Origin: Pontederia crassipes
Lineage: Eukaryota > Streptophyta > Magnoliopsida > Commelinales > Pontederiaceae
Reading direction: 5' to 3'
DNA length: 64,000 nucleotides
Assembly: GCA_030549335.1 (NCBI GenBank)
Contig: CM060196.1
Coordinates: 15,267,501-15,331,500, forward strand
The notes under the pieces are model-generated. The model did not search any database and was not told the origin of the DNA. It saw nothing but the letters and a program-made list of their open reading frames with translations. The stretch's first letter is position 1, and each line of letters opens with the position of its first letter. Positions 45,672 through 54,903 of this stretch are shown here, piece by piece. The translations under genes and the position numbers were made by a program.

Positions 45672-47763
45672 TCATCTAGTATCATCTTTTCCTACAACAA
45701 AAGAAAGTGTTTTTTTATTCAACTAGATGAAAGAACTCAAAGAAAGTTATAATTCTTTCGTTAAAGTGAAAAACGCATGAGTTTTGTACAAGAAAGAACA
45801 AAAACACAAGTCAAAAATTGCTTTGAAAGAAATGTAAGGTATACTTTTTTGTCTTTTTTTTGTGTGTGTGGGTGTTGGGGGGACTGTACATCATTGACCT
45901 CATTTGTACATTTTCATAGCAGGATGACTTACATATTTGCCTAGGTCTTCAACAACAACAACAACAACAACAAAGCCTTATCCCACTAGGTGGGGTCGGC
46001 TACATGGATCATACGACGCCATTCCGCTCTATTAGTAACCAAACCTTCAGAACTTGCTTCAAACAAAAAAATATTTGCCTAGCTAATCCTTTTTCTAATA
46101 TATGTATATATAGATACATATATCTTCAGAACTTGCTGGAGTGGAAGCAATGAACACAAACACCAAAAACTTATGAGAGAACAATTCCTTCTTTTAATAT
46201 TTTAAAAAAAAATCTCACAAGAGAATTTGTTTTACAAGAACTGACATTATGTTTCAATGCACAAAAGTCTTATCTATGGCACTCCCTACATCAACAAACT
46301 AACAACCCTGTGAATTATTGCTACATGGTAACTGCAGTCCTATCCAATCAGTCTAATCAAAGCTCAGTCGAGATTCACTGAACAGTTTGGTTTGTTACTT
46401 ATCCATGCAATCATTCAGTCTTCAAATGCAAAAACTATTTTTTAACATATATTGGCTACTATGGTCTAGTGGGCTGTCCTAACAAACCATGAGAAATGTG
46501 AAACCCCTCATAATCTTAGCTTAATCAATTTTTGAAAGAATATAATGAGCCTATATCAAGTTAACAGAGAGGATGGGCATACTGATAAGTTTGGGCGAAA
46601 GCCTGGAGAAAGTTCAGTGGTACACATATAGGATTCCTAATGGCTGACATCAAAACAACATAGTAGGAGATTCAATGCAATGACACAGGTCGCTCCTTCC
46701 AATAATAGGTCTTCAGAAGGACCTGTCCAGATCAATAACAAATAGTAGGTCTTCATAGTATTACAAAGAAAGGTATGATTTGCTCTTTTAAACGGTTTTT
46801 CCCAGACTCCAAGATTGATGGACAGAAACAGAGGCACAGGGTAAATAAAACCTGACACTGTCCTCTAAAGATTGATTCTAGTGTGGAGCAAGTCAACTGA
46901 CTACCTTGCATTATGAGATTCTCCGAGAGCAATAAGAGGTTCTGCTTCTCGTGGCAAGGGTATCTGAAATGAATCAAGTTGCAAAATTAGTAGATTGTGT
47001 TTGATAAGTATGAGTTTAGCTCATAATTCACTGGGAGATGGAAAGCATGTGGTCTATCAAAAATCAGGAGGCAGATGTAGTTTAGGAAGTGGATATTTTT
47101 TCATATGCCTAATTACAAAATATTTGTGTTTTATTTACAGAAAGTAGCGACGGATTTGGACCTGATCAGTCAATGACCTTTGCACACATTTGCTAATCCA
47201 GACCACAAACTCCCACAACCCAACATATTTTCTCTTCTCTAAAGGATACATTGGTATGCTCTACAAACTATTCACATTCCGAGCAATCTATTGTCAACAT
47301 TCTATCAAGTCGCAACAAGAGCAAATAGAAAAAAAAAGATAAAAGGAACGAGATAATAAGCGAACGGAGCGGCCATTACCCTCCAAAAGGTAGCTATAGC
47401 TCCGGCGTGACACCGAGAGCAGCGAAGTCATAAGCGCATTGGATCTCGCGCTGTGCTCCGGCAGAAGCGACTCCGAACAGAAACTCAATACCATCACGGG
47501 CGACCTTCAAAGTTATATAACAAACCGATTTGATAAAATCTCTAAAGAAGTAAACAGAGATCAAAAGATTATATTTTTTTTTTGTGTTCCGGTGCGAAGA
47601 ATAACCTGAGAGAAGGAGAAAGAGCAGATGGGCGTCGACCGGGGAGGCGGCGAAGTGGAGGGTGGGCGGCGGTGGCTGGCCTCGCTGCGGCAGATGAGGC
47701 GGTGGCGCCGCGGAGGAGGGGAGACGAGGAGCGGAGAAGAGACCTGGCGGCGCTGCTGGCCAT
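45672..47763 (-). CDS. NFD6: NFD6-like small organellar protein, alternative last exons
   Basis: Exons: 47763-47606, 47504-47380, then either 45691-45672 (100 residues, ending EGKDDTR) or 46963-46911 (111 residues, ending EGDTLATRSRTSYCSRRIS). Arabidopsis NFD6 is a small chloroplast/mitochondrial protein needed for polar nuclear fusion; its biochemistry is unknown. The first exon is a typical presequence: MASSAARSLLRSSSPLL, Ala/Ser/Arg-rich with no acidic residues in the first 50. The second exon carries the family core: SPVMVLSFCSESLLPEHSA followed by NALMTSLLSVSRRSY. All donors and acceptors are GT-AG and in phase (2, then 1). The 45,672 end resembles the EGQDKTR-type tails I recall from relatives; the 46,911 end is in phase but less familiar. 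The large last intron holds a SINE. Family is likely; isoform use is inferred. Confidence 0.85.
45945..46070 (-). mobile_element. TTG-tailed SINE, truncated, with extra 5' sequence (copy 12)
   Basis: The AAC tail, hairpin block and CATTCCGCTCTATTAGTAAC end near 46,044. About 25 bp more follow before the second copy of the duplication ATATTTGCCTAG (45933-45944 and 46071-46082). The extra piece contains CTTCAGAACTTGCT, which also occurs at 46124-46137. This suggests patch copying from nearby DNA when the 5' end was joined. It lies in the last intron of the NFD6-like gene, same strand. Confidence 0.8.
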
Positions 47764-52218: not shown

Positions 52219-53135
52219 TTTTGTGTAACATCTAGAAAGGAATCAAACAAAAAAAAAAGGGAAAACAGCCTGGCCGCACAAGGCCCAAGCCCATGTGCAC
52301 CCAGCCTAGAAGCCCACACGTAACTAACCTAAGTGCTACAGTGCCCTAACACTTTTTCCCCCACCTAATGCCAGCCGAAAGTTGCCCAAGACCCCACTCT
52401 GCTACAGTAACCCCCATCTCCTCTCTCCCTCCAAACCTCCATTCGGCCAGCAGGGAAAGGGAGCTCCATTTCTGCTACAGTAAACCACCATGATTTGTCC
52501 ATTGGTCCATAGCAAGCTCTCTTACCATTTCTCTCTCTCTCCATTTGATTATAAGCAATGGATTTGCTCACCTTTTCCTCTCTTAATCACCATGACACTC
52601 CCATTAGAGTCTTTGGAACTAGAGGAAGAAGGAAGAAATTAGGAATTAGAAATTAGGACATAAGCTAAGCAAGGTATGTTTGAGGGGATCCTAAATCTAA
52701 TCACTCCTTAATGATGTATGTTGTGTGGAATAAGAGATTTTAAGACCACACTAAGTCTTATTAAAGTATGATTAGGGATTATGCATTTCTTACTACATGT
52801 TACATTAGGGTACTATATTATTGCTAATCATGATTTGAATGCATGATGCTTCATGTATTGTTATTATGCTTATTATCATATTGCTAATCATGTTTAGGGT
52901 TATGATGTTCATTATCACTTGCATTAGCTCATCATGAAATCTTGTAAAGTTTATGTACAAATTATAAGTGTGATTAGCATGTTGAATGCCTTATGTGGAA
53001 ATCTCATTATGTTTCACGAGTAGAATGCTAAGAATGTTAAGAAATATCTTATATGATGTTTGGAAGTCAAAATTGGTTCAATATGTTAATGTACAAAAGA
53101 TTTGGGAAAGAAACCATGTAAAAATTGGATGTCTG

Positions 53136-53650
53136 CCGTCTCAGAACGGACGACCGATTTCGTATCGGCCGACCGTTCTGGAAGGGCAGACACATTCTGT
53201 GATTAGCGGGCGACCAAACACCCTGTTTTGGTCGTCCGATAATAATATAAAGGTCAATCGATACACTAACGGTCGTCCGATATGTGTAGTCGAGACATTC
53301 GACACATTTTGTGATTAGCGGAGGTCCAAACACTTCGATTCGGTCATCCGAAAAGTCAAGTACCGATCGATCGATACCCAAGACGGTCGCCCGATATGTG
53401 TAGCCAAAATAGTCGAAACATTCTGTGATTAGCGGACGAATCGAAATCTATTTTTGGTCATCCGAAAGACCTATAACGGTCGATCGATATACGAGCGGTC
53501 GTCCGTTTCAGATAGTCATCACATTCTGTGATTAGCGGATGAACCGAACGCCCATTTCGATCGTCCGAAAGAACCATAACGGTCGACCGATAATCCGACT
53601 GGTCGTCCGATATAAGACCAATGGTCGACCGTTACCCAAAATGGTCGTTC
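53136..53650. repeat. Tandem array with GGTCGTCCGAT-like palindromes
   Basis: Four units of about 105-115 bp begin at about 53190, 53303, 53417 and 53520, each with CATTCTGTGATTAGCGG (one with TTTTG). Each then carries a GGTCGTCCGA or GGTCATCCGA word, an ACGGTCGATCGATA word and a CGGTCGTCCG word. Two extra palindromes precede the array and two or three follow it. Confidence 0.88.
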
Positions 53651-53844
53651 GTTTCTAGAGGATGATTGGTTATATTTGAATGTCCACACTTAGCATGATT
53701 TGAAATTATTATGACCTTAAATAGGATTAAAATATGCAACATGTATTAAATGATTGGATGTATTGATGAACATGATTAAAAGACGGATTGATGAAGGTGT
53801 GACCTTTTTATGACTCGAGACCAATCGGTACCCTATATGTAAGA

Positions 53845-53960
53845 CTCCACCGACGGGTGGAGGAAGACCTCATTGGCGAATGAGGGTAACGACCTCATTG
53901 ACGAATGAGGGTAATGACCTCTTCTACAGAAGAGGGTTATGACTTCACCTACGGGTGAGG
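53845..53960. repeat. Row of five covarying tetraloop hairpins
   Basis: Five inverted repeats, each with a 7-bp stem and a 4-nt loop: stems 53845-53851/53856-53862, 53868-53874/53879-53885, 53893-53899/53904-53910, 53918-53924/53929-53935 and 53943-53949/53954-53960. Loops are GACG, GGCG, GACG, TACA and TACG. The last four are exactly 25 bp apart. Stem bases differ between units, but pairing is kept (ATT/AAT, TTC/GAA, ACC/GGT). Confidence 0.93.
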
Positions 53961-54903
53961 ATTACGATTTATGAGTCATCATCCTTCTCAATCGACAAGA
54001 TAAGAAATCATTTAAGTAAAGATGAAAGACGAAAAGATGAATGATGAATGACATGGAACATAAAGTTGAAGACGATAAGGATGTATGAAGAAGTATGCAC
54101 CTATGAGGATGCAATATGAATGTTCACTTGACACATCATATGATGTCATCAACAAAGATGACCAAGTAAAGTAAGATAAGATCATGATATGCAATAGCAT
54201 AATGATAGGAATGATGATAAATTATGATATGCATGATCTAAAGATTATGATGTTACATGTTATCTTATCTTGCCATGATAATATGCTCACATGCCATATA
54301 GTATGCATAAGTAGCACATATCATGCATGTGACTTATGTTTTATGATGATGAAATGCATATGTCATGACATATAGAATCATGTTATAAGATCATAGCATG
54401 CATGGGCTTCAACATACTCTAATGGAAAAAATCCCCTGCACCCCATAGATCCGTACAGGCATGGAGGAGGCTTAAGTTCGGCGACGAGGGCCTCGTGATG
54501 ATGATATTGTACATGGGTCTGTCGGGCTATAGCCCAAGTTATCTACTTCTTTTATGTCATGACGATGAATTTTGTTAAGAGTGTTTTATGTAAGGCTTAT
54601 GGGCCTTATTGAGTCATGTACTCCACTTGAACTCATTTATATATGATGAACCCTCTATTAGGTATACATTAGAGCCTATTAGGGCAATGGGCCAGTATTA
54701 TGCATCTTGGAATTTTATTTACTCATGAAGTCTTTCGCTGTTAATGAAAATGATGTTTTACGATGTTATTGTTTACGTTTGATATTATTATATTTCCGCT
54801 GTAATGTTTTATGAAATTAGGTCACGTCAAGGTCAAAGTGACGCCGCCTAGAGTTCGACAAAAAATTTAATTTGGAGCTGAATTTTGGAGTCGTTACATT
54901 TTG

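Follow-up and report, generated by a model that had tools for sequence, protein, structure and literature searches.

Tandem hairpins of the same build, each with a 7-bp stem and a 4-nt loop, form an array in the long terminal repeats (LTRs) of a plant Ty3/gypsy-type retrotransposon family. The array is an inherited family trait found at a fixed place in the LTR, and the paired change of its stems across subfamilies is real. Our best guess is that it represents a cis-acting structure of the LTR element, and the reading that we favour, with a probability of roughly 40%, is that of a selected RNA structure. The window, i.e., the whole stretch of 64,000 nucleotides from Pontederia crassipes that was analysed (CM060196.1, 15267501–15331500), contains one copy of this array, and searches for relatives of its LTR were made in the source genome (1.13 Gb in 43 contigs). 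The family supports the array better than the window copy alone, whose own compensations are less telling. The features of the window copy are as follows.

52219–52223, no strand: left target-site duplication TTTTG, read from the sequence.
52224–54898, + strand: solo LTR of a Ty3/gypsy-type element with TGTAACATC...GTCGTTACA ends (TG...CA) and a TTTTG duplication.
53664–54440, + strand: most conserved LTR block among 40 close copies (pi 0.064–0.127 per 60-nt bin).
53716–53725, + strand: CTTAAATAGG, a candidate for a TATA-type element; TTAAATAGG occurs in 28/40 close copies (eye count).
53819–53828, + strand: GACCAATCGG, CCAAT-like, directly upstream of the array.
53845–53862, + strand: hairpin U1, loop GACG, the first unit in subfamilies A, B and C.
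53868–53885, + strand: hairpin U2, loop GGCG, replaced by GACG in 10/13 B and 9/10 C loci.
53893–53910, + strand: hairpin U3, loop GACG, read directly.
53918–53935, + strand: hairpin U4, loop TACA, with a private C-G to T-A change at 53923/53930.
53943–53960, + strand: hairpin U5, loop TACG closed by C-G (UNCG type), with one T.G wobble at 53944–53959.
54899–54903, no strand: right target-site duplication TTTTG, read from the sequence.

The assignment of the host sequence to a solo LTR, made in the original prediction, is borne out by the TG...CA ends and by TTTTG on both sides of 52224–54898. Among the related LTRs, L010 and L011 flank pieces of a pol region in the order reverse transcriptase, RNase H, integrase: between the two, L048 carries RVT_1, RT_RNaseH, Integrase_H2C2 and SH3_Tf2-1, one after another in broken frames of its minus strand. 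The order reverse transcriptase–RNase H–integrase is a mark of the Ty3/gypsy clade. The same pol region has a sub-threshold Chromo match (E 0.00035; 20.9 bits against a curated cut-off of 25.1), a C-terminal chromodomain being the mark of the chromovirus clade. TGGTATC, a usual primer binding site, stands directly after 7/39 of the fetched LTRs (eye count). Sequence conservation is uneven along the LTR, with pi of 0.158–0.322 in the bins at 52704–53604 against 0.064–0.127 at 53664–54440, part of the latter block having served to pick the 40 copies in which pi was measured. An Rfam scan of the LTR left the array without a match; its two hits with E up to 1 lie elsewhere and score far under the gathering threshold.

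Two neighbouring sequences deserve mention in their own right. Upstream of the hairpins, 53124–53660 holds four repeats spaced 103–114 bp apart, which also contain inverted repeats and are highly variable among close copies; the fold of 53124–53243 has z −7.3 on the + strand and −9.2 on the − strand. Elsewhere in the window, at 45950–46010, lies a CAACAACAACAAAGCCTTATCCCACTAGGTGGGGTCGGCTAC stretch, presumably typical of plant Au SINEs.

Direct reading of the window copy confirms five hairpins of 7+4+7 nucleotides with the loops GACG, GGCG, GACG, TACA and TACG, as had been claimed. Their starts are 23, 25, 25 and 25 nucleotides apart, in agreement with the spacing given for the last four, and the single G-T wobble is that of U5. 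The RNA fold of 53830–53975 reaches −60.2 kcal/mol (z −7.2), a value equalled by 0/200 shuffles, and the best such fold merges units 2 and 3 into one longer stem. Hairpins of the 7/4/7 type with at most one wobble number 81 across the 64-kb window, whereas 40 dinucleotide shuffles average 29.5 (sd 5.2); up to five of them lie within 130 nucleotides in the window, and never more than two in the shuffles. A coding repeat was discarded as an explanation, the 25-nt period being unsuited to it.

Of 2331 first-look candidates for a query comprising 53700–54100, 40 were scored, and these matches serve as the close copies (subfamily A); their selection by similarity to the array stretch limits what they show. 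Whereas the lack of hairpins in other copies had been named in advance as evidence against a conserved structure, all five hairpins stand in register in 40/40 close copies, with 30–35 of the 35 pairs kept when wobbles are counted and 35/35 pairs intact in 12/40. The copies are old, since the two LTRs of six same-element pairs (mates judged by neighbouring positions) differ by 5.6–8.2%. At the pair 53923/53930 of unit 4, C-G is found in 37 copies, T.G in one and C.A in one, and T-A in the window copy only; hence the double change is recent. Of the compensating stems that had been put forward, those differing across subfamilies do covary, whereas among the 40 aligned copies the TTC/GAA stem of unit 4 belongs to the window copy alone. 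As proof of selection this double change was therefore ruled out. The same TTC/GAA stem is also found in units of subfamily B.

Single copies decay neutrally, regardless of pairing. In the close copies, C-G pairs changed 30 times to T.G, which still pairs in + strand RNA, and 25 times to C.A (p 0.59), and single stem changes comprise 37 that keep a pair and 56 that break one. Double changes of C-G pairs number three, including that of the window, where 1.1 would be expected in 839 C-G cells. At A/T sites, 11/1080 positions changed in stems against 192/6968 in flanks, and at non-CpG C/G sites 86/1679 against 238/3103. Linkers are as conserved as stems at A/T sites (8/718 changed), so that the low rate of change is not specific to pairs. 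The original prediction had inferred selection for structure and had proposed that equal rates of paired and unpaired substitution would speak against it. Read literally on single copies, in which transitions that keep and break pairs are about equal (30 versus 25), that comparison goes against conservation, whereas the subfamilies covary beyond the shuffle and sliding controls described below, and this part of the claim stands. Selection cannot be read from copies that have ceased to move, so the informative comparison is the one between subfamilies.

A second query, 54380–54720, which is free of the array, returned 30 loci, 22 of which carry an array at the corresponding position. The window and A copies of the first set account for eight of these (L054, L055, L057, L058, L065, L069, L071 and L073); the analysis beyond subfamily A used the 14 new loci together with 12 further short arrays (L084–L095). 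A hairpin-array match is absent in 8/30 loci found with this query (L067, L068, L070, L077 and L080–L083). Subfamilies A, B, C and D were grouped by eye rather than by a tree, and three array loci lie outside A–C. Arrays have five units in A (40 loci), mostly seven in B (13 loci) and 5–9 as parsed in C (10 loci), with an overall range of 4–9 as parsed; these numbers are lower bounds in L012, L016 and L034 (A), in L088, L092 and L095, and in several C loci. The D loci L070, L077 and L083 have a different repeat (GACCAAGACCCCACAT... type) at the array place, between similar flanks. Identity of the query block is 86.8–89.4% in the 14 new loci, and the first array piece is 72.9–82.7% identical to that of the window in 11 of them and 87–91% in L056, L060 and L074. 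Several non-A loci diverge in the stretch between array and query block as well (73.7–90.8%).

Traces of unit gain and loss are visible in L090, where one unit stands twice in succession, and in L088, which has a truncated unit. Separately, LTR pieces lie head to tail in L067, L068 and L070 (C1; about 1570 bp) and in L080–L082 (C4; 1055 bp). These satellite-like arrays, born from the LTR, are without a hairpin-array match in the stretches examined.

Six stem types occur in at least seven loci each: CATT/AATG (50), CACC/GGTG (31), CTCC/GGAG (23), the U1 stem (22), CATC/GATG (9) and CTTC/GAAG (7). Pairing is complete in all six (with one wobble in U1), although they differ from each other at pairs 2, 3, 5, 6 and 7. 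For the 17 stem types common to at least three loci (L095 excluded), 115/119 cells are paired, against 99.4 (sd 2.7) when the arms are re-dealt, with 0/10000 re-dealings reaching the observed value. In the 82 distinct non-A 18-nt units, 514/574 cells are paired (re-dealt arms: 454.7, sd 5.1) and 85 cells are two-sided (re-dealt arms: 31.9); 0/5000 re-dealings reached either count. The arm shuffles ignore relatedness, so that their figures are no probabilities. Sliding the partner by one or two nucleotides lowers the pairing of the same 82 units from 90% to 45–64%. Both of these sets of pair counts concern 18-nt units, and leaving out the 17-nt units (30/357) and one 20-nt parse flatters the pairing.

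These data bear on one alternative, a neutral tandem repeat that grew by chance from a palindromic 25-mer, its whole units being exchanged unequally and its pairing only inherited. The neutral decay of the copies fits it, as do the varying number of units and the apparent movement of whole units, such as the doubled one in L090. Nevertheless, among the stem types of at least three loci, pairs 2 to 7 each have two-sided variants, which exchange of whole units can spread and cannot create, and the arm shuffles likewise disfavour such a history, which we regard as improbable.

Whole-genome pattern counts are independent of how the loci were fetched, and they refine the picture pair by pair. At pair 5, the first 100 of 180 matches by genome position comprise 66 A-T, 32 T-A, 2 A.A and 0 T.T; the pattern admits A or T only, so that bulged, G.G and G.A units fall outside it. 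At pair 6, the first 100 of 262 matches by genome position comprise 47 C-G, 35 T-A, 13 C.A and 5 T.G (Fisher 4e-11), the unpaired C.A exceeding the wobble T.G with p 0.10. Pair 7 does not covary in the TACG pattern among the matches listed (p 0.50). All 100 pattern matches of U1 were counted by eye for pair 2, giving 50 T.G, 38 C-G, 10 T-A and 2 C.A. Taken as a table this distribution lacks significance (p 0.12); among T-bearing copies, T-A makes up 10/60, which exceeds the background of G-to-A change in the stems of close copies (28/839; p 9e-5).

Some established units depart from perfect pairing. A C unit whose 3' arm is one base short, leaving a bulged A at pair 5, has 117 exact copies in the genome. 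Another C unit combines G.G at pair 5 with a TTCG loop, and 91 matches were obtained with a pattern that fixes G.G. Eye counts of these 91 give 67 C-G, 22 C.A, 1 C.T and 1 C.C at pair 6, with 87 T-A, 3 T.G and 1 C.A at pair 4. In addition, a B unit with G.A at pair 5 is present in three loci. Pair 5 is thus the tolerant pair, and some units also lose pair 6. Such established defects indicate that the fold is kept in outline and that a perfect stem is dispensable.

The step from paired change to selection requires care, because templated correction of hairpins could also yield paired change. The nascent strand would fold back while reverse transcription or DNA replication is under way, and one arm would be copied from the other; imperfect hairpins would become perfect, tandem slippage would multiply the units, and a function would be unneeded. 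Such a mechanism has been described in RNA genes, where paired changes of several bases are its expected product (PMC8794818, in part). The switch between A-T and T-A at pair 5, with almost no intermediates, would be an easy single event; the number of units varies; and the three double changes in the close copies are slightly above expectation. Against this process stands the persistence of the bulged and G.G units in many copies, which efficient correction should have removed; the defective units argue against strong templated correction and also against strict selection on the stem. Correction alone would furthermore leave the constant loop length, the GACG start and the fixed place in the LTR unexplained. 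We consider it rather unlikely, and structure kept by selection of some kind is somewhat more probable than not.

If selection is at work, action as RNA is rather more likely than action as DNA. The energy of the + strand is the lower one in 22/27 hairpin arrays scanned and in 3/3 D loci, and four of the five arrays with a lower-energy − strand are C loci. The commonest state of U1 pair 2 is T.G, a wobble that + strand RNA can form and − strand RNA cannot. The strand argument based on wobbles is mixed, with U1 pair 2 in favour of + strand RNA and pair 6 against it. The alternative at the DNA level holds that dyad-symmetric binding sites or cruciforms serve transcription or recombination, like the tandem repeats in the U3 of other elements. 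Repeats of this kind that may act in transcription have been described, for example in Tnt1 (PMC3601003, in part), and structure-forming DNA of another type, namely quadruplexes, occurs in plant LTRs (PMC3902901, in part). Moreover, the CCAAT-like motif lies directly upstream of the array, and the DNA fold of 53830–53975 (−28.9; z −5.8; 0/200 shuffles) has five separate hairpins as its best form. On the other hand, the inner stem sequence varies with its pairing mostly kept, which a factor reading the sequence would not require, and the T.G of U1 pair 2 would mean a wobble in one arm of a cruciform and A.C in the other. An element acting as DNA appears unlikely.

The position of the array relative to the promoter is a related matter. 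By eye count, GACCAAT is present in 13/14 A/B/C rows and in 0/3 D rows. If TTAAATAGG or the CCAAT-like motif marks the promoter, the array may lie in or near the 5' leader; otherwise it would perhaps be found at the 3' end of the RNA only. TATATA at 54638 was rejected as a promoter, being found in 2 of the 37 copies with letters there.

In the selected RNA structure that we favour, a cis-acting structured element of this plant Ty3/gypsy family would be kept in the active master copies. The + strand RNA would fold into a row of hairpins, a step suggested by the + strand energy, the U1 wobble and the loop types. The row may then aid dimerisation of the genomic RNA, or the binding of Gag during packaging, through contacts formed by GACG loop–loop pairing and self-complementary arms, and the number of repeats would be free to vary if the signal is redundant. 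Granted action as RNA, dimerisation or packaging has slightly less than an even chance against another RNA role. The full proposal is accordingly doubtful, namely that, independently of retroviruses, a plant Ty3/gypsy dimerisation or packaging signal consists of a GACG pair followed by an expandable UNCG-capped row with compensatory change across subfamilies. Little is known about the way in which plant LTR retrotransposons select and pair their genomic RNA. Array units of this family number at least in the hundreds in this one genome, and the array offers a defined candidate with natural variants for RNA selection and pairing. It also lends itself well to setting selection on RNA structure against templated correction, since the decaying copies supply a neutral baseline from that same genome.

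The loops connect the array to known systems. Counted in parsed 18-nt units, U1 has a GACG loop in 30/38 A, 11/12 B and 10/10 C cases, and the second loop in A is GGCG in 28/38 and GACG in 5/38, with U3 mostly GACG in this subfamily. GACG-type hairpins thus head the array in A, B and C. The UNCG/YNMG tetraloop class is defined by the loop Y-N-(A/C)-G. From unit 3 on, such loops are found in 43/60 units of B, 22/24 of C (24 of 46 such units being scored) and 21/114 of A, where TACA (37) and GACG (36) dominate; the scarcity of YNMG loops in A weakens any strong claim based on them.

A pair of GACG hairpins is known from type C retroviruses (Konings et al. 1992, as cited in PMC5086612 and PMC5874298, each in part). 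In MuLV, both GACG loops of SL-C and SL-D add to dimer stability (PMC5874298, in part), GACG loops have been tied to packaging (PMC516450, in part), and the nucleocapsid protein does not bind the tandem GACG hairpins alone and does so only with a third hairpin (extracts of PMC7599994). The gammaretroviral motif resembles the present array in placing hairpins with GACG tetraloops next to each other in a retroelement (PMC5874298 and PMC516450, in part), a feature present in B and C. That motif has its place in the 5' untranslated leader of the genomic RNA; the array belongs to a plant Ty3/gypsy element and lies in the LTR, possibly within the leader, more hairpins follow the first two, and the second loop is GGCG in A. 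The likeness is best regarded as a resemblance, and no kinship is claimed; a role in packaging is proposed by this analogy.

Among the entries listed for the terms searched in open-licence literature, titles and abstract openings revealed no hairpin array of this kind in an LTR. Template-switch hairpins in RNA genes share the paired multi-base changes of stems (PMC8794818, in part); they represent a mutational mechanism rather than a functional family, and the mechanism may act on the array too. The U3 tandem repeats of Tnt1 are likewise short tandem repeats in an LTR (PMC3601003, in part), whereas the units of the array are hairpins, and over much of the inner stem what is kept is the pairing and not the sequence. 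Finally, the quadruplex stretches of plant LTR retrotransposons also place structure-forming sequence at set positions of the LTR (PMC3902901, in part); in the present family, by contrast, the structures are duplex hairpins that covary between subfamilies.
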